Origin: a virus
DNA length: 64,000 nt
Virus record (IMG/VR): IMGVR_UViG_3300044701_003572
Location: 1-64,000 of that record
Strand: one strand, 5' to 3'
Part shown: positions 10,776 through 47,909 of the stretch, piece after piece
Layout of the letters: each line of letters starts with the position of its first letter
How positions within the stretch are numbered: position 1 is the first letter of the stretch
The notes under the pieces: model-generated
Told to the model about the DNA's origin: nothing
Database searches by the model: none
Seen by the model: only the letters and a program-made list of their open reading frames with translations
Translations under genes and position numbers: made by a program

Positions 10776-11846
10776 TTATTTTTGTTCTTCACTTAACACA
10801 TCGTACATTTCAAAACGGCCACCCATTCTTTCGTATACTAGGCCAGCATAAACTTCTGCTTTAGTTGATTCTGTAAACTTTCTCTGTGCTACTCTAGTAG
10901 CCCAATCAAACAATGCCTTGTCTAACGGATCGATAGCTTGCTGACCGCCGCTTTCGATAACAAGTTTCATTAGTTCTCTAAAGTTTGACGATGCTTCAAC
11001 GGATTCGGCAACAACTTTCTTTGAAGTTGAGACAGATTCGTTTTTCTTTCCAAAGTACTTAGCCTGTGCAGCACTCATACCTTTCTTACCACTGTCTTTT
11101 TTATCTCCGCCTTTGTCGGCAGCAGCTTTTTTCATTGGCTCTTTCTTGTTGCCGTCTTTGTCAAGATCTAAGAAATCAGGTTTCGAACCTTCGTCCATCT
11201 TCTTATCTTTCTTAGCCATTTTTTCTTTCTTAGCTTCTACCATAGAATCAAATTTCTTTTGGAAATTTTCTTTGTCTAATTCAGCGCCTTCCATCTTATG
11301 ACGAGTCACTGAACCTTTACCATGTTTCTTTTCATAATCTTTAGAAGCTTTGTCTTGTTCTTTATCTTTAGATTTTTGTTCGCGTCTTTCAGCACCAGTC
11401 ATACCGGATTTTTCTTTTTTCTTAGGGTCGTCTTGATGATCGCTGCCGTCGTAATCTGAACCGTATTTGCCTTTGTGAACATACTTACCATCTTTAGATT
11501 GGTATTCGTTTAATGCTTCGTCGTCGCCTTCAACAGATTCTTCTTTTTTCTTAGCGACCTTAGTAGCTGTGGCATGCATAACTTCTTCGCCTCGCTTACC
11601 GTATCTCTTTTCAAATCCGTCTTTGTCTTTTTTCATAGACTTTACTACTTCTTCTTTTTTATCTTTTTCTGCTTTAGTTAATTTCTTTTCAGCAATCAAA
11701 GATTCAGTAAGAGGAGTAAGACCAGCCAGAACTCTAAATTCTGTGTCTTCGTCTAATCTTAGAACTTCCTGTGCCTCTGCAGCAGGTTTTGACTCAATTG
11801 GTGTGTCTAATGAGCTGATTTTAGAAATAAGTGATTTGAAATCCAT
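10776..11846 (-). CDS. Lysine/glutamate-rich, largely disordered protein (356 aa)
   Basis: Residues 60-270 are extremely charged (runs of KKEE, KKKEKS, KDKEQDKA) and probably disordered. A short motif DFLDLDKDGNKKEPMKKA near 225-242 looks like a single EF-hand loop and recurs in lysine-rich proteins of marine T4-like phages. A folded helical domain forms the C-terminus (ELMKLVIESGG to EMYDVLSEEQ). It heads the block of lysine-rich genes up to 16.7 kb, which I interpret as internal head or scaffold proteins packaged with DNA. It is last in its operon, just before the terminator. Confidence 0.7.
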   Translation of the reverse strand: MDFKSLISKISSLDTPIESKPAAEAQEVLRLDEDTEFRVLAGLTPLTESLIAEKKLTKAEKDKKEEVVKSMKKDKDGFEKRYGKRGEEVMHATATKVAKKKEESVEGDDEALNEYQSKDGKYVHKGKYGSDYDGSDHQDDPKKKEKSGMTGAERREQKSKDKEQDKASKDYEKKHGKGSVTRHKMEGAELDKENFQKKFDSMVEAKKEKMAKKDKKMDEGSKPDFLDLDKDGNKKEPMKKAAADKGGDKKDSGKKGMSAAQAKYFGKKNESVSTSKKVVAESVEASSNFRELMKLVIESGGQQAIDPLDKALFDWATRVAQRKFTESTKAEVYAGLVYERMGGRFEMYDVLSEEQK

Positions 11847-12160: not shown

Positions 12161-12168
12161 TATTTATC
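12161..12168 (-). promoter_or_regulatory. Late-type element GATAAATA
   Basis: Minus-strand GATAAATA, matching the NATAAATA form of T4-like late promoters. It overlaps the TAA stop of the 12164-12421 gene and lies only four bases before the ATG at 12156, so a transcript from it would be nearly leaderless. It may simply be a stop-codon context. Confidence 0.3.
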
Positions 12169-12421
12169 TCTGTATGAAATTACCTTCACCGAACAAGCTA
12201 GTTGGTGTATCTAAGGCGTTTTTAGCTGTGCCGTCTTTGTTTTTTGGTTGAGAAACCTTGGGTTGCGGCGGAGCTTTAGTTCCACTTTTTCCCGGACTAC
12301 CTGTGTAGCTTTTCTTACCTCTGGCTTTTCCGGGGCTAATATGCGGGTTAACCACAGTACCTACATTTCCGGCGTTTGTGGCTCCTACAGTAGCAGATTC
12401 TAATATTTCTTTTAATTTCAT
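12164..12421 (-). CDS. Small Gly/Pro/Lys-rich protein with capsid-targeting-like N-terminus (85 aa)
   Basis: The N-terminus MKLKEILESATVG resembles the T4 capsid-targeting peptide (MKxxxEFxxEA), with a Glu at position 8 suited to gp21-type cleavage. The rest is low complexity and basic (GKARGKKSYTGSPGKSGTKA), probably disordered. A protein of this kind could be packaged in the head. It sits in a run of similar genes. The packaging idea is inference. Confidence 0.65.
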   Translation of the reverse strand: MKLKEILESATVGATNAGNVGTVVNPHISPGKARGKKSYTGSPGKSGTKAPPQPKVSQPKNKDGTAKNALDTPTSLFGEGNFIQR

Positions 12422-12427
12422 AATCTA

Positions 12428-13048
12428 TTATTTATTACGTCCAGATTTCATATTAGCGCACCAGTGATACATTTTAGCTTTCTCACCAGATGCATTTTTA
12501 GCTTTACTACGCAGATCAGTTACAGATCCGTTGCAACTAGCCCCTGCATTTTTTACACGACCTGGACGACTTTTACCTTTAACTTTACCATCGGCAAAGT
12601 TTTCTACGTTATAGGTTGGATCTGTTTTTTGGCCTTTCTTTTTCTTATGTCCTGCAGGATCTATATCTGTAGTTGTTAGTCCCGTCTTTTTTAAGTTTTG
12701 AATATATTTGTGCTCTTCATCTTCGTCGCCAAACGACATTATTGCGCTAGGAGGACCTTTGCCAAAATCGTGTTTACCTAAACCTTTTAAATCACTGATG
12801 TGCTGTCCTAATTTATACCAATCATATACATCACTAACATCTACTCTAACTGTGCCCTTGGGCATTGTTGGTTTAGTTTCCGGCCCTCGCGGCCTTTCGT
12901 TAGGATGTTGATCTTCCCCTACATCGCCCCCGTCTCCACTATAGCCAGTAGCATATCCATACCCGCCAAACGGTCCTGGCCCGTATGCAGCCTGACGAGA
13001 TTTATGTTTCTTACGTTTTTTCTCAGTGACAAATTCGTGAGCTCTCAT
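12428..13048 (-). CDS. Basic protein with capsid-targeting-like N-terminus (206 aa)
   Basis: Begins MRAHEFVTEKKRKKH, close to the T4 capsid-targeting pattern. Residues 20-55 are Gly/Tyr-rich (GPGPFGGYGYATGY) and probably disordered. A small folded part follows (VDVSDVYDWYKLGQHISDL). The C-terminal 50 residues are basic with two Cys (NAGASCNGSV and MYHWCANMKS), a module also seen in other lysine-rich marine phage proteins. Likely an internal or DNA-binding virion protein. Confidence 0.68.
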   Translation of the reverse strand: MRAHEFVTEKKRKKHKSRQAAYGPGPFGGYGYATGYSGDGGDVGEDQHPNERPRGPETKPTMPKGTVRVDVSDVYDWYKLGQHISDLKGLGKHDFGKGPPSAIMSFGDEDEEHKYIQNLKKTGLTTTDIDPAGHKKKKGQKTDPTYNVENFADGKVKGKSRPGRVKNAGASCNGSVTDLRSKAKNASGEKAKMYHWCANMKSGRNK

Positions 13049-13051
13049 GTG

Positions 13052-13378
13052 TTACACCGAAAAACTTGATCCACAACCACAGGTTGTCTGTGCATTAGGA
13101 TTCTTTATGCTAAAATTCGCCCCAGATAAATCTTCTGTATAATCTATAATAGCACCAGTCATGTACTGCATACTCATAGCATCAACAACTACTTTCCATT
13201 TATCATCTAATGCTATTTCAAAATCGTCCTCATTTTGTTCTTCGTCAAAAGTAAATCCGTATTGAAATCCTGAGCATCCTCCACCTTGGACAAATGTTCT
13301 TAATTTTAAATTAGGATTATTTTCTTCTAAAAGAAGATCTATAACTTTTGCTTTTGCTGATTCAGTTATCTCAACCAT
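13052..13378 (-). CDS. erpA: ErpA/IscA-family A-type iron-sulfur carrier
   Basis: A-type carriers hand iron-sulfur clusters to target proteins. The three ligand cysteines are present: Cys35 in GGGCSGFQY and Cys100/Cys102 in TTCGCGSSF. 108 residues is a normal length. The N-terminal [11 protein letters not shown] and the [11 protein letters not shown] box fit ErpA better than IscA. It overlaps the upstream gene by 13 bases and sits, oddly, inside the lysine-rich gene block, 34 kb from the phage IscU/IscA pair. Confidence 0.92.
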
Positions 13379-13584
13379 TTTTTATCTCCTACTGGTTTCT
13401 CGCCAGTCATGTAAGGCAAACTAAACCACAGTTGAAACCATTCACGAGTTCCGGGCTGTATATTATGCTTTTTTTCTATCTGACGCTTTTCGTTACCAGT
13501 AATACTTATATTACTACCTTCATAAGGTTGATAGCCTTTGAATTCTGTAATACCAGCAAGACGTTTTAATTCTGATAATTCCAT
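13366..13584 (-). CDS. Small conserved-type protein (72 aa)
   Basis: Begins [15 protein letters not shown], reminiscent of the acidic-amphipathic N-termini of its neighbours. The second half, [18 protein letters not shown], is a compact aromatic motif that I have seen in small unknown proteins of marine phages. It overlaps the ErpA-like gene, so it may be coupled to it. Function unknown. Confidence 0.65.
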
Positions 13585-14120
13585 TATGCTGTCGGCGATT
13601 CGCCAGTTTTATACACTTCCCATTTTTTACCAGTCTGCTCAGATTTTTTACGTGCCCAATCTTTTAAACTGTAAAAATGTTTTTCTTCGTATTGGTCGTC
13701 GGCATATTGACCACGACCTTGAAATACTTTCCATTTCTTACCGTTGATGTAAACAGCAAAATTATTCGGAGGCTCAGTGTTACCCTCATCCCAATCTTCC
13801 GGATCTCGAATTCTTTCTGTCATACCTTTACTCTTTGCTTCTTTTTCTAAATCGTTTTTACGTTGAATTATAGCCTGTTTGATTTCTTTGTCTTGCGACG
13901 CAATAGGATCCATTTGCAAGTCTTGAAGTGCTTTTCGCTTTGCAATTAAATCTTCTTTATCTCTTAATTCGGTTTCAGTAACATCTTTGCTTTTATGTTT
14001 TTCGTAACCTTGTTTCTGCTCTTTTTTCTTATCACGATGGGCGCCTGCGCCTGCAGTTTTTTGATTCTTAGCTACAAAGTTTCTAGGCTTACTTGTTGGT
14101 ATAAATTCTTTTGCTTTCAT
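13584..14120 (-). CDS. Basic protein with capsid-targeting-like N-terminus (178 aa)
   Basis: Starts MKAKEFIPTSKPRNFVAKN, matching the MKxxEFI pattern of T4 capsid-targeting peptides, then GAGAHRDKKKEQKQGYEKHK. The middle is a long charged coiled segment. Residues 120-175 form a small folded domain (NNFAVYINGKKWKVFQGRG and KHFYSLKDWARKKSEQ) that could be a separate module. It overlaps one base with the upstream gene. Likely virion-internal; role unknown. Confidence 0.68.
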   Translation of the reverse strand: MKAKEFIPTSKPRNFVAKNQKTAGAGAHRDKKKEQKQGYEKHKSKDVTETELRDKEDLIAKRKALQDLQMDPIASQDKEIKQAIIQRKNDLEKEAKSKGMTERIRDPEDWDEGNTEPPNNFAVYINGKKWKVFQGRGQYADDQYEEKHFYSLKDWARKKSEQTGKKWEVYKTGESPTA

Positions 14121-14121
14121 T

Positions 14122-15660
14122 TTATTTCTCTATATGATCTAACATAGGATCAATTCCGCGACTACGTATTCCGCCTTTTTTACGAACTTTAGCAAGTTCT
14201 TCTAACGCATGACGTATTTGTTCTACATTCATTTTTAATTCATCGAATTGTCTAGCCATTGTTTGCCACTCGCTAGGGCTAGCATTATCTACACGACTAG
14301 CTAAATCTTTGATTTGCCCAGCGGCTCTCATCATACGATATTTCAGTTTAGCTGGATTTCCTCCAGCACCATATATCATAGGATCCATAGGATCAGTGGG
14401 GTCCATCTCGATAGGTGCTTCTTTGACTTCTTTCTTTTTAGGATATCCGTGTTTGATTTCTAATTGATAACCTTGTAAACCTTGCTTGTCTAAAACTCCA
14501 CTGATAAATTTTTCTGCCTCTTTGGCATTATCAAATTTATCACCAAGATTATATTTTCTAACCTCACCGTCTATCATTACATAGGCAATAGTAATAGGTT
14601 TAATTGGTTCTTCTGCTGCCTGAGCAGGACTGCCTAATAGATTCGCAGCAGCAAGGGCAGCACCAGCCATTTTGCTTTTCCAACCTTCTTCTACTGATTC
14701 AACATAATCTTTTTCTTTTTCTACTCCTAAAGACTGTCTTAGGATTCTCATAGCCCTCGCTTCGATTTGCCTTATCCTTTCAGGAGATAATTTCATCTTT
14801 TCGGAAACTTCATCTAAAGTCATACCGAGCCAGAATCTTGCTTTAAGCACTTTTCTTTGCTGATCATTTAATTTTTCAAAGTTTTTTGCAATGATTCTCT
14901 TTAATTCTTCCTTGCTGAAATCTGTTTCGTACGGCTCATTTTTTAAAATGTCTAACGGATCAGCATCATCTACAGGATCTTTTTCTAAGGATGGCATAGG
15001 TTGTTGTCTATAAGTTTTACCATCTGATTTGTATATTGATATTTGTTGATTAGGATTCGCTTCTAGAGTCGACTCGTTTATTCCCATCCCTTTTCTTACA
15101 GCGATGTAAAGTTTTTCTGCGTATTGTCCTGCCCCGGTCGCCTCTGCAAAACCTTCTAGGTCGCCTCCGGCTGCCATAGATCGTGCTCTACTGGCGCTGA
15201 TACCTGCAACACCTTCTGCTCCATCTTCTCTTTCACCACTACTTTTAAAATCTAAGACATCAAATTTATAATACCCGTGCGCCTTACCTTCGACTCCGTT
15301 ATACATTTCTAGCAGCTTCTTCATAGATTCTAATCTATCACTGCCAGCTACAAATGTTACTGCTCTATAACCTTGATCGTATAGATAGCTGGCAATTTTT
15401 ACAGGAGTATTAAGGCCGGGATCTTCGACTATCGCCTTGGCGTGTTCGGGTATGATTGCTTTGATAAATTTAATTTTGGTAGAATAATCTAAGGGATTAT
15501 CTTTTTTGTCTTGACTAGGACTAACAAATATTTTATAGTCCCCTCCAACTTTAGCAGCAGTATCTAGTAACTGTTTATGTCCGATGGTGGGGGGATTAAG
15601 TCTTCCGAATACGAAAGTTATATGTTTTGTGTCGGCTTCAAAAAGTTCTAAAAGTTTCAT
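14122..15660 (-). CDS. Nucleotidyltransferase fused to sigma-70 region 4, with capsid-targeting-like N-terminus
   Basis: A 512-residue multidomain protein. Residues 1-9 (MKLLELFEA) fit the T4 capsid-targeting/gp21-cleavage pattern. Residues 12-190 form a cytidylyltransferase-fold enzyme of the NadM/NMNAT type, with TIGH at 25-28 ((H/T)xGH motif) and ISASRAR at 154-160 (ISxSxxR-type motif). Residues 247-310 are a clear sigma-70 region 4: NFEKLNDQQRKVLKARF, then the helix-turn-helix TLDEVSEKMKLSPERIRQIE and ARAMRILRQ. A hydrophobic Ala-rich stretch at 331-349 ends AQAA. The C-terminus is helical. Domain reading is direct; the idea of an injected factor acting on host RNA polymerase or NAD is inference. 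Confidence 0.85.
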   Translation of the reverse strand: MKLLELFEADTKHITFVFGRLNPPTIGHKQLLDTAAKVGGDYKIFVSPSQDKKDNPLDYSTKIKFIKAIIPEHAKAIVEDPGLNTPVKIASYLYDQGYRAVTFVAGSDRLESMKKLLEMYNGVEGKAHGYYKFDVLDFKSSGEREDGAEGVAGISASRARSMAAGGDLEGFAEATGAGQYAEKLYIAVRKGMGINESTLEANPNQQISIYKSDGKTYRQQPMPSLEKDPVDDADPLDILKNEPYETDFSKEELKRIIAKNFEKLNDQQRKVLKARFWLGMTLDEVSEKMKLSPERIRQIEARAMRILRQSLGVEKEKDYVESVEEGWKSKMAGAALAAANLLGSPAQAAEEPIKPITIAYVMIDGEVRKYNLGDKFDNAKEAEKFISGVLDKQGLQGYQLEIKHGYPKKKEVKEAPIEMDPTDPMDPMIYGAGGNPAKLKYRMMRAAGQIKDLASRVDNASPSEWQTMARQFDELKMNVEQIRHALEELAKVRKKGGIRSRGIDPMLDHIEK

Positions 15661-15998
15661 TCGGAATCGTAATTTTTATTTTTGATATGTATTTCTTGTT
15701 CTTCGGCAAATTTTTTCGCTAACCCGATCAAATCTTCTTTTGGAAATTTTTTCTCTCTATCACTGACTTGATATTTTTCACAATATGATTCGCAACTGCT
15801 TTCAATTGGTCTTATATAAATCTTATAGACATTAGGATTTCCTACATAATCTCTGTGTTTTTTTATAGCAGGAAAAAAATTCTTACTGAGAACAGTATCA
15901 TCGTTGTCGATGAAGAATTTTAAATCATTGATCCAATCAACATCTTGCTCTTTTTCATTCGGAGCACCGATTGGTGAAAACATTTCTCTTAATAACAT
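15657..15998 (-). CDS. Small conserved-type protein (113 aa)
   Basis: Begins MLLREMFSPIGAP, another short amphipathic N-terminus like its neighbours. The core (DNDDTVLSKNFFPAIKKH, then NVYKIYIRPIESSCESY) looks like a small folded alpha/beta domain. It overlaps the fusion gene by four bases and the upstream gene by one, so it is translated with them. Function unknown. Confidence 0.68.
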   Translation of the reverse strand: MLLREMFSPIGAPNEKEQDVDWINDLKFFIDNDDTVLSKNFFPAIKKHRDYVGNPNVYKIYIRPIESSCESYCEKYQVSDREKKFPKEDLIGLAKKFAEEQEIHIKNKNYDSE

Positions 15999-16729
15999 TA
16001 CCAGCTCCTACAAGACCAGTATCTTGCCTTATGACGCGGACCTGGATTCGCACAATTATGACGAGCACGGAATGACTTTCTACGTGCTGGATTTGATTTC
16101 TTAATACGCATTTTCTTGTCGCCAAAGTTTACTTTAACAACACGACCCTGTGGATTCTTTACATATACTTTTGATTTCTTAACATCACCTGGCATTTTCT
16201 TGCCTAGCTGTACTTTACGGCCTTGATATTCAGCTTCGTCTACTGCTGCATCTTCTTTTTTTAGATACTTGTCTTTGATGCGTCCTTTTTCTTCCTCGTC
16301 TGCACCTTCACGACCTGCTTTCTGCAGTGCTTCAAATCCGTCTTTGCCATATTTTTTAATACCTGTATAGCGTTGTAATCCGCTCTCGTCAAGATCTTCG
16401 CCCATCTTAACACAGTTGTCTACGGTCTTGCCGCCTTTCTGTTTGGTGCCCATACGCTTGTAGCCTTTCCAACAGGCTTTACCATCTACGCCTTTTTGCT
16501 TTTCTTCGTAGATCAGTTCGCCTTCTAGCATTATAGCACCGTTTTCAGTTAAGTGATTTAAGCCAGTTTCGTCTAATTCTACAACGATTCCGTCTTCTGT
16601 GAATCCGATAACCTCAGTAACTATTTCTAAATCAGGACTAAAACTAAATCCGATCGAGTCGCCTAGTTCTGGAACAATGGACTCTTGAGTGTTTTCGATT
16701 GATGTTAATTTGTTTAAAAGGTCTCTCAT
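15998..16729 (-). CDS. Basic protein with Cys-containing C-terminal domain (243 aa)
   Basis: An acidic N-terminal half (beta-rich, EVIGFTEDGIVVELDETG) is followed by three modules recurrent in marine phage proteins: GKACWKGYKRMGTKQKGGK near 82-100, an EDLDESGLQRYTGIKKYGKDG linker, and a very basic tail (RIKKSNPARRKSFRARHNC and RHKARYWSCRSW). The tail probably binds DNA. A GATAAATA element lies just upstream. I read it as a packaged or DNA-associated virion protein. Confidence 0.68.
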   Translation of the reverse strand: MRDLLNKLTSIENTQESIVPELGDSIGFSFSPDLEIVTEVIGFTEDGIVVELDETGLNHLTENGAIMLEGELIYEEKQKGVDGKACWKGYKRMGTKQKGGKTVDNCVKMGEDLDESGLQRYTGIKKYGKDGFEALQKAGREGADEEEKGRIKDKYLKKEDAAVDEAEYQGRKVQLGKKMPGDVKKSKVYVKNPQGRVVKVNFGDKKMRIKKSNPARRKSFRARHNCANPGPRHKARYWSCRSW

Positions 16730-17151: not shown

Positions 17152-17826
17152 TTATTTATCGACTATACTATATTCGTGTACTCTGCCCATAGATTCGCTA
17201 GATCTAAGTTTCAGTAATAGCAGGGTATGTTCGTCCTGCACATAGATGTACCGTCGATCCCAGTTCCAATTGGTATCTATAAACCACTTTTTAACTTTTT
17301 CAGAAATTAAAATTTTAGGACTTTGTTGATTGAGCCAAGACAGATAGTTGTTCTTAGCCTGTATATCGTTTTTAAGTTTGTGCGGTAATAGATAAACTTT
17401 ATATTTGTACGATCCGTGTGGAAGTTTTTGTACAGGTATTAATCCTGTATTGAGAATATCTAACTGATTGTTATCAGGCACCGAGATATAAACAATCTTA
17501 TCAGCTAGCTCTTTTTCAATACTATCGCATATAGATTTGTCATTTGTGTAAATGTCAATCCTATTGCTTTCGATCCTCTTAGCGTAAGAATCTTTCTGAG
17601 TTAAGTTTAGAATACATGCTAATTTACTGATATACGATTTATTGCTGTAGGCCTTGATCAGGCTACTTTGTCTATAACCATTGCCTTCGGGCATTTCTTC
17701 TTTATCAAAATTAATCAATTTTTCAATAGAATTTATTCTCATTATAGATACACCAGGTATCAATAGTGATACCTTGTATACCCATTTATTATAGAACTTT
17801 CTATTGGTGTATTTTATTTTAGTCAT
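17152..17826 (-). CDS. Unknown protein (224 aa)
   Basis: Rich in Lys, Tyr and Asn; strands such as KWVYKVSLLIPG and YKVYLLPHKL alternate with helices. The conserved-looking end, RRYIYVQDEHTLLLLKLR, resembles a structural rather than enzymatic signature. It overlaps the ClpA-like gene start by eight bases. No function recognised. Confidence 0.6.
   Translation of the reverse strand: MTKIKYTNRKFYNKWVYKVSLLIPGVSIMRINSIEKLINFDKEEMPEGNGYRQSSLIKAYSNKSYISKLACILNLTQKDSYAKRIESNRIDIYTNDKSICDSIEKELADKIVYISVPDNNQLDILNTGLIPVQKLPHGSYKYKVYLLPHKLKNDIQAKNNYLSWLNQQSPKILISEKVKKWFIDTNWNWDRRYIYVQDEHTLLLLKLRSSESMGRVHEYSIVDK
17153..17160 (-). promoter_or_regulatory. Late-type element GATAAATA
   Basis: Minus-strand GATAAATA overlapping the TAA stop of the 17152-17826 gene, five bases before the ATG at 17148. 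The very short distance to the start makes it weaker as a promoter call than the one at 16754. Confidence 0.3.
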
Positions 17827-20140
17827 TTTCTAGTAATGGGATCGGTTCCCCTCTTTTCAATGCCTTGCGCTGTTCTTTAGTCAGAGTCACTTCTTTTTTA
17901 AGAAATGTGAAAGAAATTTCGTTCCCGTTTAAGTTTACGACTGCCTTTCCGCCTTCTTTTAACTCTCCGAATAGGACTTGTCTACTTAGAGGAGATTTAA
18001 TTTTGTTATCAATCAATCTCGCTAACGGTCTTGCACCCATCTTACTGTCGTAGCCTTTTTCGGCTAACCAGCTAATCACAGATTGATCAGCGACGATCTC
18101 GATGTTCTTTTCTTTGATCTGTTGATTTAAATCAGAAATAAATTTTTCAACGATCTTACGCACAGTTTCTTGTGATAATTTTGTAAACTTGATAGTCGCA
18201 TCTAATCTATTACGGAATTCGGGAGCGAAGAATTTTTTAACTGCTTTGTCATCTTCCCCTTCTCGAGATAAATCTCCAAAACCGATAGTATTTTTTTCGT
18301 TATCAGCAGCACCTAAGTTGCTGGTCATAATCAAAATAGTATTCCTACCATCTGCTACTTTTCCATTGCTACCAGTAACGAATCCGTTGTCCATAAATTG
18401 TAATAGAATATTAGTAACATCCGGATGAGCTTTTTCAATTTCGTCTAATAGTAAAACACAATTTGGTGTTTCCTGTAATTTCGTGATAAGTTGACCAGCA
18501 TTATCTTCGTAACCTACATATCCTGGAGGTGCACCGATAAGTTTGGCGACGCTGTGTTTTTCTTGATATTCACTCATATCAAATCTAACCAACGGCAATC
18601 CCATTTTTAAACTTAGTTGTTTAGCAGTTTCTGTTTTACCGCAACCCGTCGGACCTGCAAATAAGAAACATCCAACTGGTTTATTAGGTAACTTCATACC
18701 AGCCTGTGCTACAAAAATTTTATCTAATAAGTTATCTACAGCACCATCCTGACCGTAGACAACTTCTTTCATTCCGGATTCTAGATCTGCAAGATTTTTG
18801 CTCTCTTTCTGCGCTACAGTTTCCAAAGGCATATTGATCATCTTGCTAAGTTCGTAGGTTACCTGCTCAACGTCTACGATCTGCTCAATACCTTCCATTG
18901 TTTCGTCGTCTCGAAGTTTATATCTAGCAGATGCACAATCAATAATATCGATAGCCTTATCTGGAAGTTTTTTGTCTGGCATATACTTCACAGATAGTTT
19001 AACCGCTTGTTCAATTGCTGCTTCTGTAATCTTTACATTATGATGCTTTTCATAATATTTTTTAATTCCTTTGATGATCTTAACGGTAATTTCGCTGGTC
19101 GGTTCGTCGATAGTAACACGTTGGAATCTGCGCATCAACGCACGATCCTTTTCAAAATGCTTGCGATATTCTTCCCAGGTAGTAGATGCTATCAGTTTAA
19201 TAACACCCTTGGTCAATATAGGTTTAAGAATGTTGGCCAGATCGTTGCTTGATTGATTGGCTGCGCCCGCACCTTGCATCATATGTGCCTCATCAATGAA
19301 AAGAATAATCTTGCCTTTTCTTTCTAGTGCGGTTAATACAGCCTTGATGCGTTCTTCAAAGTCTCCTCGATATTTAGATCCTGCTAACAACGAACTAATG
19401 TCTAGTGTATATACCTGGTGATCTTGAATAAACTTAGGAACTTTCTTTTCAAATATCTTACGTGCTAGACCTTCTGCGATCGCAGTCTTACCTACACCTG
19501 GCTCGCCAACCATTAGTACATTACACTTATTTCTGCGAGCCAAAATTAGTTGAATGTTTTCAAGTTCTTCATCTCGTCCAATTACAGGATCTATTTTACG
19601 TTGTTTAGCTAATAGGCTTAGATTAGTACAAAATTGATTGATAATTTTTTCGATTTGATTTGGATTCACTACAGCGTTCTCATTGTCGTTTTCTTCATCA
19701 TCTCCTGTGAGTTGATCATGAAAGTGTTGGATGAATTTTTCTTTGCTGACTCCGCCTTTGCTTAAAAAATAAAAAGCGAAAGAATTCTTTTCATTAAGAA
19801 TACTTAAAATAACATCTATAATTTCAATTTTTTGACGCCCACTGAATAGTACCTGTGAGAAACATCTGTTTAATACTCGTTCCACCGAATTGGTTTTTTT
19901 AGGTCTTAGATTTTCATCTTCGGTCTTAATGTCGCTGAGATTGTTAATGACGTAATTTTCTAAATTGTTTTTAATAAAATTAACATCAGCACCGAACTGT
20001 TCTAGATGATTATAGGAATTTTCATCTAACATTATGCTATAAACAATATGTTCTAGTGTTATGTATTCGTGTTGATTCGATTTAGCTACTTCGATAGCAG
20101 TTTCGAAAACACCCTGAAGGCTCTTACTAGGTTCGATCAT
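17819..20140 (-). CDS. clpA: ClpA-like AAA+ unfoldase
   Basis: A complete Hsp100-type ATPase (773 aa; E. coli ClpA has 758). The N-domain spans roughly 1-145. AAA domain 1 has Walker A GEPGVGKT (212-219), pore loop KYRG (256-259) and Walker B FIDEAH (281-286). AAA domain 2 has GPTGCGKT (496-503), pore loop GYVG (541-544), LLDEIE (564-569) and FRNRLD (642-647). Residues 619-621 are IGF in the loop that binds ClpP in ClpA (IGL), so it could dock on the host ClpP protease; no clpP lies in the window. ClpB's coiled-coil middle domain is absent. It abuts the deformylase gene. Confidence 0.93.
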   Translation of the reverse strand: MIEPSKSLQGVFETAIEVAKSNQHEYITLEHIVYSIMLDENSYNHLEQFGADVNFIKNNLENYVINNLSDIKTEDENLRPKKTNSVERVLNRCFSQVLFSGRQKIEIIDVILSILNEKNSFAFYFLSKGGVSKEKFIQHFHDQLTGDDEENDNENAVVNPNQIEKIINQFCTNLSLLAKQRKIDPVIGRDEELENIQLILARRNKCNVLMVGEPGVGKTAIAEGLARKIFEKKVPKFIQDHQVYTLDISSLLAGSKYRGDFEERIKAVLTALERKGKIILFIDEAHMMQGAGAANQSSNDLANILKPILTKGVIKLIASTTWEEYRKHFEKDRALMRRFQRVTIDEPTSEITVKIIKGIKKYYEKHHNVKITEAAIEQAVKLSVKYMPDKKLPDKAIDIIDCASARYKLRDDETMEGIEQIVDVEQVTYELSKMINMPLETVAQKESKNLADLESGMKEVVYGQDGAVDNLLDKIFVAQAGMKLPNKPVGCFLFAGPTGCGKTETAKQLSLKMGLPLVRFDMSEYQEKHSVAKLIGAPPGYVGYEDNAGQLITKLQETPNCVLLLDEIEKAHPDVTNILLQFMDNGFVTGSNGKVADGRNTILIMTSNLGAADNEKNTIGFGDLSREGEDDKAVKKFFAPEFRNRLDATIKFTKLSQETVRKIVEKFISDLNQQIKEKNIEIVADQSVISWLAEKGYDSKMGARPLARLIDNKIKSPLSRQVLFGELKEGGKAVVNLNGNEISFTFLKKEVTLTKEQRKALKRGEPIPLLEND

Positions 20141-20634
20141 TATTTAAATTTCCTTAATTTCTTCATAGCTAATTGTAACTTTAATTGAGATACTTTGTCA
20201 ACGAAACATACGCCATCTAGATGATCGTATTCATGTTGAAAACATTTTGATAGATACCCATCTACTTTAATTTCTTTAATATTACCTTTGCTGTCTTGAT
20301 ATTCAGCAATGACCCATTGAGGTCTTTTAATCATTAAAAACAGTCCAGGATAACTTAAACATCCTTCTTTATCCAGAACTGTTTCTTTGCTAGATTCTAT
20401 AATTTTAGGATTGAACACAGCAAATGGTTTCGGAAAACCTGGTATATTCTCGCTGCCTATAACAAATACTCTTTTAGCAATATTGATTTGATTGGCCGCA
20501 AGGCCTATTCCGTTGTTAGATATCATGAATTCGCACATAAATTTTTCAATTAATTCTGCGTCGCCGTCGGAATTAAAATCCCATCCTATGCTCTTTTCGA
20601 TTAGACTTTCGTGCGGCCCTAGATTAAATTGCAT
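20140..20634 (-). CDS. def: Peptide deformylase
   Basis: Removes the formyl group from new N-termini. All three motifs are intact: GIGLAANQ (43-50), EGCLS (90-94) and HEYDH (134-138) with the catalytic Glu and two metal His. At 164 residues it is close to bacterial length, unlike many shortened phage deformylases. It overlaps the ClpA-like gene by one base and the DnaJ gene by 11, forming a proteostasis operon. Confidence 0.96.
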   Translation of the reverse strand: MQFNLGPHESLIEKSIGWDFNSDGDAELIEKFMCEFMISNNGIGLAANQINIAKRVFVIGSENIPGFPKPFAVFNPKIIESSKETVLDKEGCLSYPGLFLMIKRPQWVIAEYQDSKGNIKEIKVDGYLSKCFQHEYDHLDGVCFVDKVSQLKLQLAMKKLRKFK

Positions 20635-21463
20635 TTTTTCTTATCGTTTCTATTAGGTTTTTCTGTGCAGCATCGAGATTTCTTGGAATATCGATTTTTA
20701 TTTTCATTAACAGATTACCCCTTTGCCTAGTTCGCATATTAGGTAATCCTTCCCCTCGACAGCTTAACACGGTTTCCGGCTGAGTCCCGGGTGGAATTGT
20801 TATTGTAATAATCTTGTTATCTATAGTTGAAATATTTAAATTTGTTCCGAGAATAGCATCCCAAACACTGATAACTTTTTCAATAGCCAGAGCATCACCC
20901 TCTCTTCTAAACACAGAATGCGGTCTAACTCTTACATTAACAATCAAATCACCTGCCCTTAAGTCAGGAATAGAATCGTCACCCATTCCTGAATATTTTA
21001 TTTGTTGACCGTTATCTATCCCAGGCGGGATTTGAATATTGATTACTTTTTTCTTTCCTCCCGGAATTCCGACTTCTGCGTTTATTTCCTTACCAGATAG
21101 TACATCTTCCAGAGTGACATCTATAGTAATGTTTAAAGATTTATTTCTTCTCATTGGTCGTTGATTGAATCCAAATCCGAATTGATTAAAAATATCGTGT
21201 ATATTATCAGAGCCGAAATGAAATTCAAACGGTCCCTGATTCCAATTATGACCTTGATTTTGAGAGTTGGGATCGACTCCAGCATCTACTAGTCTTTTCT
21301 TTTCAGGATCGCTTAGTGTCCGATAGGCCTCTTCTATCTCTTTGAATTTTTTTTCATCACCTCCGCGATCTGGATGATGTTTCATCGCGAGGCTTCGGTA
21401 GGCCTTTTTAATGTCTGACTCCGAAGACCCTCTGTTTAACCCTAATGTTTTATAATAATCCAT
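20624..21463 (-). CDS. DnaJ-like co-chaperone (type B, no zinc finger)
   Basis: I use the ATG at 21463 (MDYYKTLGL); the frame is open 12 codons further but the J-domain begins here. Residues 1-68 are a J-domain with HPD in MKHHPDRGG. A Gly/Phe-rich linker (GPFEFHFGSDNIHDIF, FGFGF) follows, then two C-terminal substrate-binding domains. There are no CxxCxGxG repeats, so this is the CbpA/DjlB-like type. It should stimulate host DnaK. The neighbouring deformylase and ClpA-like genes suggest a joint protein-quality role during infection. Confidence 0.93.
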   Translation of the reverse strand: MDYYKTLGLNRGSSESDIKKAYRSLAMKHHPDRGGDEKKFKEIEEAYRTLSDPEKKRLVDAGVDPNSQNQGHNWNQGPFEFHFGSDNIHDIFNQFGFGFNQRPMRRNKSLNITIDVTLEDVLSGKEINAEVGIPGGKKKVINIQIPPGIDNGQQIKYSGMGDDSIPDLRAGDLIVNVRVRPHSVFRREGDALAIEKVISVWDAILGTNLNISTIDNKIITITIPPGTQPETVLSCRGEGLPNMRTRQRGNLLMKIKIDIPRNLDAAQKNLIETIRKNAI

Positions 21464-21478
21464 ACAGTATATTATACG

Positions 21479-21511
21479 AAAAAAATAGGACTGAATCAAT
21501 CAGTCCTATTA
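21479..21511 (-). terminator. Rho-independent terminator
   Basis: 11-bp stem AATAGGACTGA/TCAGTCCTATT with a 5-base loop, followed on the minus strand by a run of seven T. It closes the unit that ends with the small secreted protein gene. A TATAAT box (minus strand) lies just beyond it, before the dnaJ ATG. Confidence 0.85.
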
Positions 21512-28307: not shown

Positions 28308-28498
28308 TTATGTTCTTTCTTTAGTTCTTGAGGTTCTGCAAATCTTACGTTCGGGTCTATTATTTTGTAGATTCCCACAGGCTTCCAATATTTGTGTACA
28401 AGATTATTAATAATTAAAATAGCGATTACCCATACTATTGCGGCTAACATAGTTAAAATACTACTGGCTAAAAACATAGCCGCATGGTCCATATTCAT
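28304..28498 (-). CDS. Small single-TM protein (64 aa)
   Basis: A single hydrophobic segment (LASSILTMLAAIVWVIAILIIN) near the N-terminus, then a short basic-acidic tail (KIIDPNVRFAEPQEL). Overlaps both neighbours by four bases. Found in similar places in other marine T4-like phages, as I recall; no role known. Confidence 0.68.
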   Translation of the reverse strand: MNMDHAAMFLASSILTMLAAIVWVIAILIINNLVHKYWKPVGIYKIIDPNVRFAEPQELKKEHK

Positions 28499-28929
28499 TG
28501 TTTTAATCCTTTTTCTACTTCTGCGGCTACTACACGATTCCGCAATTCTGTTGTTGAAAAACTGTGTTGGCGCCTGTTGAAATAAAATTCAATTCCTTTA
28601 GCAATACATTCGTACTTTCCAGTGAATTCTTTTTCTTGATATTCATCTCCTAATATTCTAACAGTAATAGGATAAGAAAGCAAGATGTCTACTAATTCTT
28701 TTTCAGTAGAATAGGGGATTACTTCGTCGATATACTTGCAGGCTTTAAGTTGTACGAATCTTTCAAATACACTTTGTACAGGCTTGTTTTTTTCTGTCGG
28801 TCTATCTATAGTAGGATCTGTTTGTAAACCTACAATGAGATAGTCGCATTGTTTTTTGGCTTCTTCTAACATCAAAAGATGTCCGGCATGAAACAGATCA
28901 AAGGTTGAGCAGGTAAATCCTATCTTCAT
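28495..28929 (-). CDS. TagD-like cytidylyltransferase family protein
   Basis: Start at the ATG at 28929 (MKIGFTCSTF), where the family's first strand begins. FHAGHLLML carries the HxGH motif and the end STTELRNRV matches the (S/T)ST...R motif; residues DPTIDRPTEK bind the nucleotide in relatives. Family members make CDP-glycerol, CDP-ethanolamine or similar (CTP plus alcohol phosphate). 144 residues is the usual length. The actual substrate is unknown; surface glycan work would fit the phage glycosyltransferases. Confidence 0.85.
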   Translation of the reverse strand: MKIGFTCSTFDLFHAGHLLMLEEAKKQCDYLIVGLQTDPTIDRPTEKNKPVQSVFERFVQLKACKYIDEVIPYSTEKELVDILLSYPITVRILGDEYQEKEFTGKYECIAKGIEFYFNRRQHSFSTTELRNRVVAAEVEKGLKQ

Positions 28930-29336
28930 AGGATATCCATTTCCGGCGAGATCCATCCATTACCGTTATCTTTAGAAACAAAAGGTTTTAAGTTAGGAGG
29001 TTCCCAGCCCAATGGTTTGAGAACTTTACCATCTTCACGTTTACGAACTTTGCCTGTTTCTTTGTCAATCTTGGCAAAGTTAGTACGCATTACTTCTTTC
29101 CAGGCGCCTTCAGCGTCTGCACCCATAGAATGAATAGTGCCGATGGTAACAACAAGAATATCTATTAGTGCATCTAACGTTTCTACTTTGTCATTATTAT
29201 CAACAGCTACGGCTAATTCTCTATGTTCTTCTTGAATGAGTTTAAGATACATATTGAATTGATCTTGATTGAATGTGTCGGTGCTTTGATCACAGGCTCT
29301 CATGAACTTTTCTTGATCTCTAAAAGCATTGGTCAT
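28926..29336 (-). CDS. MazG-like nucleotide pyrophosphohydrolase
   Basis: An all-alpha NTP pyrophosphatase with the acidic metal site spread over EEHRELAVAV (residues 35-44) and DALIDILVVTIGT (55-67). 136 residues, one domain. Enzymes of this class clear non-canonical or unwanted nucleotides; in marine phages a role in dNTP pools or ppGpp level has been proposed. It overlaps the cytidylyltransferase gene by four bases. Substrate unknown. Confidence 0.82.
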   Translation of the reverse strand: MTNAFRDQEKFMRACDQSTDTFNQDQFNMYLKLIQEEHRELAVAVDNNDKVETLDALIDILVVTIGTIHSMGADAEGAWKEVMRTNFAKIDKETGKVRKREDGKVLKPLGWEPPNLKPFVSKDNGNGWISPEMDIL

Positions 29337-34295: not shown

Positions 34296-34886
34296 TTAGA
34301 TCAACGGTGCTGCGACCGTTCCGAAATCTACAGATATCCTACTAGGAATTGGAACAGTTCCGAAATCAATATTAGATGCAGATAAATTAAATTGCACGAC
34401 ACTGTCGTAGTCGTTGGACACTGGTCCAAAATCAACATTTCTTAAAATGTTAGTTACTGGTAAGTCAGTATCTATAGTGATAACATTGTTTGCAGCGGTA
34501 ACACTTATATTATTACCACCTTGCATGGTTAAAACTGTGTTTGCCGAGACGCTAGTTCCGCTAGGTACTGCAGATGCTATACCGCTTTCAGTTATAACTT
34601 TGGTAAATGCATCTGGAGTGTTATTTGAAATTACAACAGTATCTGAAGTTGATGAAAGTAAGATCTTGTTATTTCCAGCAATTAATTTTTTAAATTCTAG
34701 ATTAAGACCATTCTTTTGTTTAAAAATGCCTTCACCGTTTACAGTTTCTGGTATGTTTTTTCCTGTAACCGATAGTTCTGCATCTAATGACGAGAAGTTT
34801 GCATTGACCTTTTGAAACGCTGACCGTAGATCATCGCCTAGGCCATCATTTACCACGTTTCCGATATTAATTGTTTGTATAGTCAT
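34296..34886 (-). CDS. Fibre protein with shared docking module (196 aa)
   Basis: Begins MTIQTINIGNVVNDGLGDDL followed by RSAFQKVNANFSSLDAEL, the N-terminal module shared with the 36021 and 39283 proteins. The rest is short beta repeats (NKILLSSTSDTVVISN, GNNISVTAANNVITID). Its end repeats the phrase FGTV, as in NIDFGTVPIPSR and VDFGTVAAP. Probably a short accessory fibre. Preceded by a GGTAAATA element. Confidence 0.75.
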   Translation of the reverse strand: MTIQTINIGNVVNDGLGDDLRSAFQKVNANFSSLDAELSVTGKNIPETVNGEGIFKQKNGLNLEFKKLIAGNNKILLSSTSDTVVISNNTPDAFTKVITESGIASAVPSGTSVSANTVLTMQGGNNISVTAANNVITIDTDLPVTNILRNVDFGPVSNDYDSVVQFNLSASNIDFGTVPIPSRISVDFGTVAAPLI

Positions 34887-34904
34887 AACACGCTCTCTTT
34901 AGTA

Positions 34905-34912
34905 TATTTACC
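34905..34912 (-). promoter_or_regulatory. Late-type element GGTAAATA
   Basis: Minus-strand GGTAAATA in the 34-base gap upstream of the 34296-34886 gene, about 19 bases before its ATG. A one-base variant of NATAAATA. Confidence 0.45.
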
Positions 34913-34920
34913 CTATTGTA

Positions 34921-36009
34921 TTATCTTACCCAATACCAAATAACGCCCGGGCTACCGCCATCTTGGATTGTGGCCAACCACGGTGCTGGTTCCCATCCGC
35001 CACACGAGATCAATGTTCCCCACCAACCGCCACGGAATCCATCTGTGGTCAACCAACCGTGATTGATACCAATGCCTACCCAAGGCATACGTGCTTCCAT
35101 AGCATCGTAATGATAATCCCACGTTTTATCATTGTAACCAAAGCGAGCTAGTTCTGTAATGTTCTTGCGCCAGCCAGGTGTACCTAAATGTTCATCACCC
35201 ATGTCAGCACTTTCATGAGTTTGAGTAAATGAGTATGCTTCGTTGGCAGTCCAAGCACCGCCCAGTGATCCGTGTTCGCGAGCAGTGATCATAAAATCAA
35301 ATCCTGTCTCTGCACGTTTGATCTTGTTAGCCCAACTTAATATGCTGTAGTTTTGTTCAACTGAACGATTGTTGTATGCAGCCAGTTGAGTAGGGCAAGT
35401 GGTAGCGTTGCGACTAAACACTTGTTCTTCTGTCCAGTTACTAATAGAATTTTGTAAAATCAATGTCCAACCACCACCAAGTGTAGTCATATCACAATAG
35501 ACTTGGAACGGATCGCCATTATTGATTGCGTCATTCTGTATCCAGTATACACTATCTTCACTGTCCGGGTAGTCTTGTTTGATCTGCCACGCACTAGTGC
35601 TGTATTCTTCTCTAGTCTTGCCGTTAGGTACGCCTAATGCTTGATTACGTGCTATAAGTTCTGCCTTTTCACGTGCTAGAATAGTCTGTTCTTCTGTGCG
35701 TATTGCGGCAACTAATGCTGTACGATCAGTAATGCTTAATGTTTCGTAATAATCTAAAACAGTTTCGTTGTCTACAACTGCGTCAGTGTTGTTGATGGTA
35801 TCCGCATTTTGCAAAGAGTCGTGTAGCGTATCAAAGTTTTCATTGACAGTATTGATAACTTCGACTAGTGGATTAGCAGGATGTAAATCTTTTAGTTCTA
35901 ATTTCTTAAATGTCATAGGATTCTCAAAGTTTTCGTTAACCGTATTAATAACTTCAACTAACGGATTAGCAGGATGTAAGTCGTAGAGTTCTATTTTCTT
36001 AACGGACAC
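34921..36009 (-). CDS. Fibrinogen-like (FReD) adhesin with duplicated N-terminus (362 aa)
   Basis: The C-terminal 225 residues form a fibrinogen-related domain: a lead-in segment, then FQVYCDMTTLGGGWTLI near 168-184 and repeated GGW-type motifs (GGWWGTLISCGGW). FReD domains bind acetylated or carboxylated sugars, often with calcium. Residues 4-29 and 35-60 are a tandem duplication of the same docking unit (ELxDLHPANPLVEVINTVNE). A coiled stretch links them. It is probably a receptor-binding tip; binding target unknown. Confidence 0.82.
   Translation of the reverse strand: MSVKKIELYDLHPANPLVEVINTVNENFENPMTFKKLELKDLHPANPLVEVINTVNENFDTLHDSLQNADTINNTDAVVDNETVLDYYETLSITDRTALVAAIRTEEQTILAREKAELIARNQALGVPNGKTREEYSTSAWQIKQDYPDSEDSVYWIQNDAINNGDPFQVYCDMTTLGGGWTLILQNSISNWTEEQVFSRNATTCPTQLAAYNNRSVEQNYSILSWANKIKRAETGFDFMITAREHGSLGGAWTANEAYSFTQTHESADMGDEHLGTPGWRKNITELARFGYNDKTWDYHYDAMEARMPWVGIGINHGWLTTDGFRGGWWGTLISCGGWEPAPWLATIQDGGSPGVIWYWVR
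35830..36000 (-). repeat. In-frame duplication of a 26-residue docking unit
   Basis: Two coding copies (35923-36000 and 35830-35907) give nearly identical protein but differ at many third codon positions, for example GTTAAC versus GTCAAT-type alternatives. This points to an old duplication kept by selection on protein, or to divergence that limits recombination. Confidence 0.85.
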
Positions 36010-36020
36010 AGTATTTCCTT

Positions 36021-37157
36021 TTACCAGCTAGTGCCAGTCCACGCTACACGGACCCAAATGTCAGTGGTGTTATTAACGTAGTTTTGTTTACAATAGTATA
36101 TGTACGGGTCAGTGAATACCACCATTCCTTCTAGGTCTCCGGCAGCACCATAACTGTGTTCTGGCACAGTTCCATTGGGGAATATCATCCTGCCGTCAGG
36201 AGAAAATGTAAAAGTAGTACTGCCTAAAAGTGTTTGTGCAATAATCTCGGTAGTACCGTCGGAATTTATTAAAATTCCTCCTAGCGGCTCGAGTAATGGG
36301 CCATCTGCACCGGCGGCTCTCAACTGTATATATTTGTTAGAGGCACCCCAGATATTGGTATTACCAGCGACATCGCTTTCTACTCGGACTCCGCTAGGAA
36401 ATGTTAGACTACCGTCATTGTCATCAAAGTGCCAAGGATACGATGGTGTGCCTATCGTAAGTATTCCGCCGGAAGCCGGCGAAAGACCAAGACCACCGGA
36501 AGTTGATATAACACTACCGCCTGGGAGTGTCAGTCCACCGTAACTATCAAATGTCCAAGACTTTAGTGTAGTTAGTGCATTAGTATTAACCACAACAGAG
36601 TCAGATGATGTAATTGCCACGGCTCCATTAGCAGATGCTATTTCAGCGCCTTGGATAATGATATTTTCACCAGATGCTACTGTTGGAAAAGTCACATATG
36701 GATTAGCACCACCAGTTAATACTACCTCCTTAGCACCAACTGCTAATTTATCAGTTGAAGAAACTAATGTGCCGTTGACTGTTAATTGCCCGCTACCGTT
36801 TACACTTAGGGGAGTTTCACCTAGATAGATAGTGTTGTTGCTGACATATAAACTCTTCCAAGGTTTAGCAGCACTACCTAAGTTACCACCGAGAGCAGTC
36901 TGTGGAACAACATCCCCGCCTACATTTAAGTCGCTAGTAACAGTAACAGCCTGGTCAATGGTGATCGCTGAACTGTCTGTGGTGCTGATAGTGCTGCCGG
37001 TAAATTCAAATGCGCCAATATTTAAAGGAGCAACATCTAATCCTAGTGCTGTATAAAGTTCAGTGAAGTTGGCATTTACTTTTTGGAACGCAGCACGTAG
37101 GCTATCACCTTGTTTATCATTTGATGTTATGCCTACGTTAATTGTTTGCTTAGTCAT
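36021..37157 (-). CDS. Fibre protein with shared docking module (378 aa)
   Basis: Begins MTKQTINVGITSNDKQGDSL then RAAFQKVNANFTELYTAL, the shared docking module. The body is repetitive beta (SSAITIDQAVTVTSDLNVGG, and repeated SLTFPSGVRVES-like strands), as in a trimeric fibre shaft. The end (YIYYCKQNYVNNTTDIWVRV) forms a small closing domain. It lies between the FReD adhesin and the YadA-like fibre. Confidence 0.78.
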   Translation of the reverse strand: MTKQTINVGITSNDKQGDSLRAAFQKVNANFTELYTALGLDVAPLNIGAFEFTGSTISTTDSSAITIDQAVTVTSDLNVGGDVVPQTALGGNLGSAAKPWKSLYVSNNTIYLGETPLSVNGSGQLTVNGTLVSSTDKLAVGAKEVVLTGGANPYVTFPTVASGENIIIQGAEIASANGAVAITSSDSVVVNTNALTTLKSWTFDSYGGLTLPGGSVISTSGGLGLSPASGGILTIGTPSYPWHFDDNDGSLTFPSGVRVESDVAGNTNIWGASNKYIQLRAAGADGPLLEPLGGILINSDGTTEIIAQTLLGSTTFTFSPDGRMIFPNGTVPEHSYGAAGDLEGMVVFTDPYIYYCKQNYVNNTTDIWVRVAWTGTSW

Positions 37158-37168
37158 TTATACGCCCC

Positions 37169-46935: not shown

Positions 46936-47223
46936 ATGTTTCTAAAAACAGAAATTGAATCTACAGAATATGTTCGAGTCAGCAAGTTAGGCAAAGAACA
47001 TAGGTATAAAAGAAAAAAGACCTTAGCGGTCTTTAGATGTGATAACTGTGATCAAATTTTTAAGAGAGAACTTAAAAAAATACACAGTAAAAGATTAAGT
47101 AACAATTATTTTCATTGTTGTTCAAACTGCGATGCAAAGAAATTTGCTCAACGAAAAGGAGTGGAGCGAAAGAAAATATGGGATATGCCAGCTAGTTTAG
47201 AGTGGCCAGTGTCTAAATTCTAA
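46936..47223 (+). CDS. Cys-rich putative zinc-binding protein (95 aa)
   Basis: Start at the ATG at 46936 (MFLKTEIES); a TTG one codon earlier is less likely. CDNC near residue 35 and CCSNC near 62 give four or five Cys of a zinc-ribbon or finger. The region between is basic (KRELKKIHSKRL). It is one of few plus-strand genes, so it has its own promoter, and it converges with the IscA gene, overlapping it by 11 bases. A nucleic-acid-binding regulator is possible. No clear Shine-Dalgarno. Confidence 0.7.
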   Translation: MFLKTEIESTEYVRVSKLGKEHRYKRKKTLAVFRCDNCDQIFKRELKKIHSKRLSNNYFHCCSNCDAKKFAQRKGVERKKIWDMPASLEWPVSKF

Positions 47224-47533
47224 AACTTTCGCCGCAGCCACAGCGGTCTCGTTCGTTAGGATTAATAAAATCAAAACCTTCGTTTAAGCCTTTTTTTAGC
47301 CAATCCATAGTCAAACCGTTTAGATAAGGCATAGCTTTAGGATCTACGAATATATGTATCCCTTCGCTAACAAAGCTAAGATCTTCCTGTATAGGATTGT
47401 CGACGTATTCTATAGTATATGCAAGTCCGCTACAGCCTGTGGTTTTTACACCGATTTTAATTCCGTGTCCTTTGCCTCTATGTTCTAGATGATGTTTTAC
47501 TTTGTTAGCTGCTAACGGTGTTAGTGATATCAT
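47213..47533 (-). CDS. iscA: IscA-like iron-sulfur carrier
   Basis: A-type carrier: Cys34 in TTGCSGLAY and Cys98/Cys100 in DRCGCGESF, with the usual 64-residue spacing. 106 residues. It overlaps the IscU gene by 29 bases, an IscU-IscA order as in bacterial isc operons, though cysteine desulfurase (IscS), HscA and HscB are not in the window. It would pass clusters made on the phage IscU to phage or host enzymes. Confidence 0.94.
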   Translation of the reverse strand: MISLTPLAANKVKHHLEHRGKGHGIKIGVKTTGCSGLAYTIEYVDNPIQEDLSFVSEGIHIFVDPKAMPYLNGLTMDWLKKGLNEGFDFINPNERDRCGCGESFRI

Positions 47534-47909
47534 GTTTGGCTTTATAATCAGCTACTGCGGCTTTGATCGCATCTTCGGCTAGAATACTACAGTGTATTTT
47601 AACTGGCGGCAAGGCTAGCTCTTCGGCGATAGCGGAGTTTTTAATTGTTCCTGCTTCGTCGAGGGTTTTTCCTTTGAGCCATTCTGTAACGAGGCTCGAG
47701 CTTGCGATAGCCGATCCGCAGCCATACGTTTTAAATTTTGCATCTGTAATAATACCTGTATCATCATCGACCTTAATCTGTAGTTTCATAACATCTCCGC
47801 AGGCAGGAGCACCAACCATACCGGTGCCCACCTCCGGATCATTCTTATCAAAGCTACCCACGTTACGAGGGTTCTCGTAGTGGTCAATAACTCTGTCAGA
47901 ATATGCCAT
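47505..47909 (-). CDS. iscU: IscU iron-sulfur cluster scaffold
   Basis: Complete scaffold protein (134 aa; E. coli 128) on which clusters are built. Ligands Cys37 (APACGD), Cys64 (YGCGSAIA) and Cys107 (IHCSIL), with Asp39 and His106, are all present. LPPVK at 100-104, the sequence that HscA recognises in IscU, is intact, so the protein could use the host HscA/HscB and IscS machinery. It is translationally coupled to IscA. Confidence 0.96.
   Translation of the reverse strand: MAYSDRVIDHYENPRNVGSFDKNDPEVGTGMVGAPACGDVMKLQIKVDDDTGIITDAKFKTYGCGSAIASSSLVTEWLKGKTLDEAGTIKNSAIAEELALPPVKIHCSILAEDAIKAAVADYKAKHDITNTVSS

Follow-up and report, generated by a model that had tools for sequence, protein, structure and literature searches.

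Gene Organization of the Locus

The window, that is, the whole stretch of viral DNA analysed here, comprises the first 64,000 bases of an 86,378-base record, itself a fragment, from a T4-like phage, with matches to T4-type families for both the DNA polymerase and the clamp loader. Within a compact run of minus-strand genes at 10.4-16.8 kb, the ORF at 14122-15660 (minus strand) encodes 512 amino acids from ATG to stop with zero internal stops and overlaps its upstream neighbour by 4 bases. Domains, site positions and module shuffling were computed in this analysis, and a viral_contigs search found relatives of the ORF encoded at 51 loci. The original prediction, made from the sequence letters, had placed a nucleotidyltransferase (NTase), a sigma region 4 and a capsid-targeting-like N-terminus in this one gene, and all three are present in the intact ORF. 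AlphaFold, which had been named there as a check on domain limits, modelled four ordered parts from 21 sequences, with the NTase (residues about 12-195) and the sigma helices (250-310) as separate units, then a beta module at 356-405 and lastly a helical hairpin at 436-494; low-pLDDT stretches at 197-252, 313-352 and 408-434 separate the four. The third and fourth modules (residues 326-414 and 415-512) and a repeated junction motif had been overlooked.

The strict form of this motif, (L/I/V)xE↓(A/G/S), i.e., [ILV]xE[AGS], is of the T4 gp21 prohead-protease type, the arrow marking the putative cut. All four strict matches in the ORF, LFE↓A (6), INE↓S (194), VEE↓G (323) and VKE↓A (412), lie at module borders; the first belongs to the N-terminus, modelled at low confidence, and the remaining three fall in or beside low-pLDDT segments. 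In addition, TLE↓A (198), which fits the motif more poorly, directly precedes an ANPNQQ start common to the contig L057.

A sequencing-made fusion of two genes, one of the cases that would have undone the original prediction, was rejected. The whole 512-residue ORF is present in contig L001 with 3 nucleotide differences from the window, and residues 257-512, from the sigma part to the end, are present in contig L002 with 13; identity to the window over the fetched or matching region is 99% for L001 and 96-99% for L002. Because the two contigs, each in part, carry the same joints, the joints are real and no assembly artefact. Eleven of the 13 changed codons in L002 are synonymous, which suggests that the sigma module and modules 3 and 4 are under purifying selection.

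Several neighbouring genes on the minus strand carry similar junctions. The packaged-type gene at 12428-13048 (MRAHEFVTE...) encodes 206 residues in the window vs. 110 in both L001 and L002, the difference being a module inserted between VGE↓D and NVE↓NFADGK; this reads as ongoing module exchange, with near-identical strains differing by a module insert. The gene at 13584-14120 contains the modules TE↓TELRDKEDL... and MTE↓RIRDPEDW..., which stand behind a capsid-targeting peptide in other phages, and the gene at 15998-16729 (MRDLLNKL...) ends in a module DE↓AEYQGRKV...; phage Melnitz has a similar module at the C-terminal end of its NTase ORF. A small gene at 12164-12421 (MKLKEILE↓SATVGATNAGN...) resembles the capsid cut site LAE↓SATAGATSAGN of related phages. 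From its position and motif, the gene at 10776-11846 (MDFKSLISKI..., sites at 46, 279 and 296) is a probable member of a head-internal cluster. From position, the upstream neighbour with the 4-base overlap (15657-15998, MLLREMFSPIGA..., no strict motif) is a possible one.

Other gene groups were noted as well. A radical SAM island (window 60195-62858, continuing at 64857-82024 of the 86-kb record, G000; L053) holds at least eight Pfam-confirmed proteins; SPASM occurs in two of them and a weak B12-binding match in one. The island also has ORFs that by eye resemble oxygenases and a halogenase; this density is unusual for a phage, and a pathway that modifies peptides or surfaces may be encoded here. 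Iron-sulphur assembly is represented by two A-type carriers plus a NifU/IscU-type scaffold (13052-13378, 47213-47533 and 47505-47909), which perhaps serve the radical SAM island. A ClpA/ClpB-type ATPase, a small unassigned ORF and a protein that is DnaJ-like by sequence follow one another at 17819-21499, and several tail- or fibre-like genes at 34296-46866, the longest of 2527 residues, have a common N-terminal stretch, e.g., GNDGTGDSIRDAFRKVNDNFRELY.

Capsid-Targeting-Like Peptide and Virion Evidence

Residues 1-8 (15637-15660, minus strand) form a capsid-targeting-like peptide, MKLLELFE↓A, with a predicted cut after E8: a short N-terminal peptide ending in L/I-x-E followed by a small residue. 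E8 is invariant in 21 aligned family members, and L6 and F7 are also conserved. Cultured NTase homologues from cyanophages and a Methylophilales phage start in the same pattern: MKKFSAFLSE↓A (Syn9), MKNFHQFITE↓A (S-SRM01), MKKFSEIIE↓A (Melnitz) and MKKFSAFLNE↓A (S-SM1). The targeting-like N-terminus that had been proposed for this gene is supported. In T4, gp21 cuts after Glu in L/I-X-E, and the function of the capsid-targeting sequence (CTS) is described (PMC9026906).

Both gp21 (PF03420, S77 protease) and gp23 (PF07068) were found in 6 of the 11 records searched. Neither was found in the fragmentary 86-kb record, and for this phage both are inferred from its relatives. Where it could be read, the capsid protein of related phages contains KYLAE↓SATAGATSAGN or KYLSE↓SATAGATSAGN, and 7-8 sites are present in their scaffold. 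Virion location is known from work by others for a cyanophage homologue: T4-GC190, which by annotation is SSM1_190 and is homologous to our NTase, was reported in purified S-SM1 virions (Sullivan et al., 2010; PMC3037559). This is the homologue that starts MKKFSAFLNE↓A. The analogy to T4 Alt drawn in the original prediction, and that to the internal proteins, are supported.

These data bear on one alternative, that the gene encodes an ordinary, unpackaged cytosolic enzyme with degenerate added domains and coincidental motifs. Homologues in the jumbo phages PA5oct and 121Q, which are single-domain proteins lacking a targeting peptide or tail, would agree with it; the Kyanoviridae homologue found in S-SM1 virions, the invariance of E8 in 21 aligned relatives and the 11:2 ratio of synonymous to nonsynonymous codon changes between L002 and the window make it highly improbable.

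Nucleotidyltransferase Module

Module 1 (residues 9-196; 15073-15636, minus strand) is an NTase of the HIGH superfamily that ends at INE↓S (194-197). PF01467 (CTP_transf_like) matched residues 17-115 with 23.3 bits, just over the cut-off of 21, and two families annotated as "cytidyltransferase," phrog_3041 (E 1.4e-45) and phrog_395 (E 5.6e-38), strongly covered residues 6-212. The (H/T)xGH and ISxSxxR motifs of the superfamily were found in a Rossmann-like fold, as TIGH at residues 25-28 and ISASRAR from 154 (ISASR from 154 lying inside GISASR, 153-158). The model was mostly at pLDDT 78-93, falling to 51-66 at 141-160, and Foldseek matched it to NadD, NMNAT and PPAT with probability 1.0, in agreement with the nucleotidyltransferase originally proposed. 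NadD, NMNAT, PPAT and choline-phosphate cytidylyltransferases all matched at a similar level; the domain probably makes or modifies a dinucleotide-type cofactor. A role in NAD metabolism is without support from partner genes, because no member of the NAPRTase/NAMPT family occurs in the 11 records searched, several of them fragments. A second, unrelated-looking cytidylyltransferase lies at 28495-28956 of the window (GFTCSTFDLFHAGH).

Module 1 shares 38% identity with the S-SM1 T4-GC190 virion protein. Nearly all close relatives, and several cultured phages, have an [IV]xE site where the NTase domain ends. Behind this common end, "AVRKGMGI.E," at least five different continuations were observed among relatives, namely STLEANPNQQIS... 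(the sigma module), SVDEGIKSK..., SISEAPIEM..., DIEEAGFLSFLKSE... and DLEEHIVKEGKF...; in about 30 relatives, none with sigma region 4, quite different modules come after the NTase, in either order.

Sigma-70 Region 4 Module

Module 2 (residues 201-325; 14686-15060, minus strand) consists of a conserved ANPNQQIS... leader and a sigma-70 region 4 and is bounded by TLE↓A and VEE↓G. The region 4 itself (residues 262-309; 14734-14877) matched PF04545 (Sigma70_r4) with E 2.2e-14 and 53.1 bits against a cut-off of 24.1. All 24 of the 24 PDB sequence matches were sigma factors, SigA, RpoS and RpoD among them, and the ERIRQIEA recognition helix that matches primary sigma factors is kept. A generic repressor helix-turn-helix was therefore rejected, and the sigma assignment made earlier holds against true sigma factors. 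The sigma helices at 250-310 were modelled at pLDDT about 67-77; Foldseek matched region 4 structures with weak E-values, as expected for 60 residues. No model of sigma region 2 (core binding and -10 recognition) appeared among Pfam hits up to E 1. Module 2 is a sigma domain and no complete sigma factor, as had been foreseen from the absence of region 2. Judged from its sequence and from a model of moderate confidence, region 4 in free form would most likely bind the beta flap of RNA polymerase and/or -35 DNA.

The sigma module is known in two distinct sequences in all, that of this lineage and that of L057, which is 42% identical, bounded by VAE↓A and VAE↓G, and embedded in a 1215-residue chain with repeated "GVAEG" junctions. 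The start EANPNQQI, searched as a DNA pattern in IMG/VR, returned only the two known contigs; a profile search of the fetched loci gave no further copy, cultured phages gave ordinary sigma-type matches only, and no relatives were found in genome_contigs. NTase and sigma parts were found in one gene within this near-identical lineage only, and no NTase was found on the 108-kb L057 contig, which may be incomplete.

This distribution bears on the idea, along the lines of the original prediction, that an intact packaged fusion acts in the host, the sigma part aiming the NTase at RNA polymerase for modification in the manner of T4 Alt. Both domains are indeed whole in one ORF behind a capsid-targeting-like N-terminus, and the joint recurs in L001. 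However, about 30 relatives have the NTase without sigma, L057 has sigma with no NTase on its possibly incomplete contig, and protease-type sites stand on both sides of the sigma module in both of its versions; moreover, HIGH-superfamily enzymes normally work on small molecules. We consider a single acting fusion protein quite unlikely. Because protease-type sites lie at both sigma borders and the two parts do not occur together outside the near-identical lineage, they are probably separated before ejection.

Modules 3 and 4 and Reshuffling Between Genes

Module 3 (residues 326-414; 14419-14685, minus strand), bounded by VEE↓G and VKE↓A, combines a signal-peptide-like start, GWKSKMAGAALAAANLLGSPAQA (residues 326-348; 14617-14685), with a small beta domain. 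It was found at 45 viral loci in several gene contexts, and in most cases the hydrophobic segment comes right after an [ILVF]xE↓G site. Being basic and hydrophobic and containing SPAQA, this start resembles an export signal, one that would become N-terminal only once the chain is cut. Module 4 (residues 415-512; 14125-14418, minus strand), APIEMDPTDPMDPM..., is preceded by VKE↓A and is predicted to form a helical hairpin with helices at 436-457 and 462-494. It is present in most relatives either before or after module 3; the two orders are exemplified by L006 and L003. Both modules also occur in neighbouring genes, as module 3 does in L077.

The same module also appears in two settings. For example, in L078 KWSEKYKRSINCSNPKG comes after the targeting peptide MRAKEFISE (FISE↓KWSEKYKRSINCSNPKG), and its counterpart in L098 is internal, QGVAE↓EWSQKYKKSINCSHPKG. 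RVRDPEDWDEGNT stands after the targeting peptide MKLKEIISE in L094 (IISE↓RVRDPEDW) and internally after PMDE in L090 (PMDE↓RVRDPEDW), and as RIRDPEDWDEGNT after GMTE in the window. Likewise, TELKDKEDL comes after DAIVSE (IVSE↓TELKDKEDL), its window counterpart TELRDKEDL after DVTE. Such placement of one module after a targeting peptide or an internal site is expected if a single protease cuts at both positions.

GH19 chitinase/lysozyme domains were observed in the relatives L086 (6069-7535), L048 (2238-3089) and L016 (7076-7801), and were confirmed in L086 and L048. The domains are preceded by an N-terminus of targeting type and by a signal-like segment that comes after an xE↓G site, and these proteins are possible packaged wall-cutting enzymes.

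Junction Motif at Homology Breakpoints

Homology breakpoints, taken as BLAST alignment ends internal to both proteins, were collected from 118 non-redundant related proteins. Of 281 module starts, 66 had the strict motif nearby against an expectation of 18, and of 246 module ends 80 did against an expectation of 17, a coincidence 3.7-4.7 times that of chance. The control motifs [ILV]xD, xK and xQ were at or below chance; two other E-containing patterns were raised 1.8-2.8-fold, in part because VEEG also fits one of them. With one representative per module edge the signal of the strict motif was weaker (11 of 68 vs. 4.6, p 0.004; 13 of 70 vs. 5.3, p 0.0025), and that of a looser motif was significant at starts (p 0.0005) and not at ends (p 0.17). 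The motif occurs 3.0 times per 1000 residues in the record's other proteins vs. 6.6 times in this cluster. It is short, and its P1' residue varies, with K, R, E, T or N at some apparent junctions.

Shuffling through a common linker would likewise bring breakpoints and motif together. The E↓G/A linkers could then be recombination tags only, the chain staying uncut and perhaps acting as one multidomain protein like the "polyvalent proteins," which are known packaged multidomain proteins (PMC5512222). Set against this, the same motif occurs at N-terminal targeting peptides and in the major capsid protein and scaffold, where it is cut by the T4-type protease, and signal-like hydrophobic segments stand right after sites, positions that are N-terminal only after cutting. 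We therefore regard uncut chains as unlikely and favour cleavage at the junctions.

Discussion

Our analyses suggested that the ORF encodes a modular, head-packaged polyprotein belonging to the T4-type system of internal head proteins, which would be cut by the head protease and ejected as separate mini-proteins. We give this reading a probability of about three in four; it draws on sequence, modelled structure and analogy to T4, and from this wholly computational evidence we infer packaging, cleavage, ejection and both biochemical roles.

The proposed course is as follows. First, residues 1-8 would serve, by homology, as a capsid-targeting sequence that carries the chain into the prohead core. 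Second, the prohead protease (gp21 family, S77) would cut after Glu at E8, E196 (and/or E200, the poorer fit), E325 and E414, yielding an NTase of about 188 residues, a sigma region 4 protein of about 125, an 89-residue protein with a new N-terminus reminiscent of an export signal or membrane anchor, and a helical protein of about 98. Third, these products would remain inside the head and be delivered to the host along with the DNA. There, the free sigma region 4 may bias transcription in the first minutes of infection, either by competing for the beta flap or by occupying -35 elements.

A broader proposal, to which we lean with some reserve, is that a branch of T4-like environmental phages packages early host-takeover cargo as capsid-targeted polyproteins of interchangeable effector modules cut by the prohead protease, some exposing an export signal after cutting and one being a free sigma region 4. 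If so, a single targeting peptide and a single protease would bring a wide variety of proteins into the capsid, and the cut sites would double as exchange points for new effectors. Many genes labelled "hypothetical" or "cytidyltransferase" in cyanophages, in Pelagibacter phages and in freshwater T4-like phages would then be head cargo, and a simple rule, a site between modules, would find effectors from sequence. Module 2 offers a testable candidate for a phage-injected sigma domain.

Comparison With Known Systems

Module 2 has the same helix-turn-helix and ERIRQIEA recognition helix as region 4 of the primary sigma factors (SigA/RpoD/RpoS), and the L057 copy keeps the KHPSRSDALQSFL tail, but unlike those factors module 2 lacks regions 2 and 3 and has its own ANPNQQIS leader. 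N4-like phages also carry transcription machinery in the virion, in the form of a virion RNA polymerase, whereas this ORF holds only a sigma domain fragment.

Polyvalent proteins (Iyer et al., 2017; PMC5512222) are packaged, multidomain and of unrelated activities, with a presumed action at host entry. Unrelated domains and shuffled domain order are common to both systems; the polyvalent proteins discussed in that paper, if cut at all, rely on built-in metallopeptidases, whereas in our proposal the head protease makes the cuts, at module borders. Polyvalent-type unrelated domains are present in our ORF, where cleavage probably separates them. A text search of that paper gave neither a sigma term nor a capsid-targeting term.

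The cyanophage core "cytitidyltransferase" T4-GC190 (SSM1_190; homologue Syn9 gp184) is closer, having a homologous NTase, the same targeting-peptide pattern and, in S-SM1, a site at the NTase domain end. It differs in its 38% identity, its lack of sigma region 4 and its other downstream modules. Its presence in virions is experimental (PMC3037559).

The T4 proteins IPI, IPII, IPIII and Alt are CTS-targeted, processed by gp21 and ejected. As in our ORF, a short N-terminal peptide ends in a gp21-type site, diverse cargo stands behind a conserved targeting peptide, and the phage group is T4-like with gp21 and gp23, here in relatives. However, trimming at one or both ends leaves each T4 protein as a single main product, whereas this ORF strings together four modules separated by sites, and modules pass from gene to gene. 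We know of no chain of several mature proteins among the T4 internal proteins, and no head-protease-cut phage polyprotein or packaged sigma domain was recognised in the open-access literature searched. The chain of several modules with sites between them is, on the best reading, a new variant of the T4 internal-protein system.
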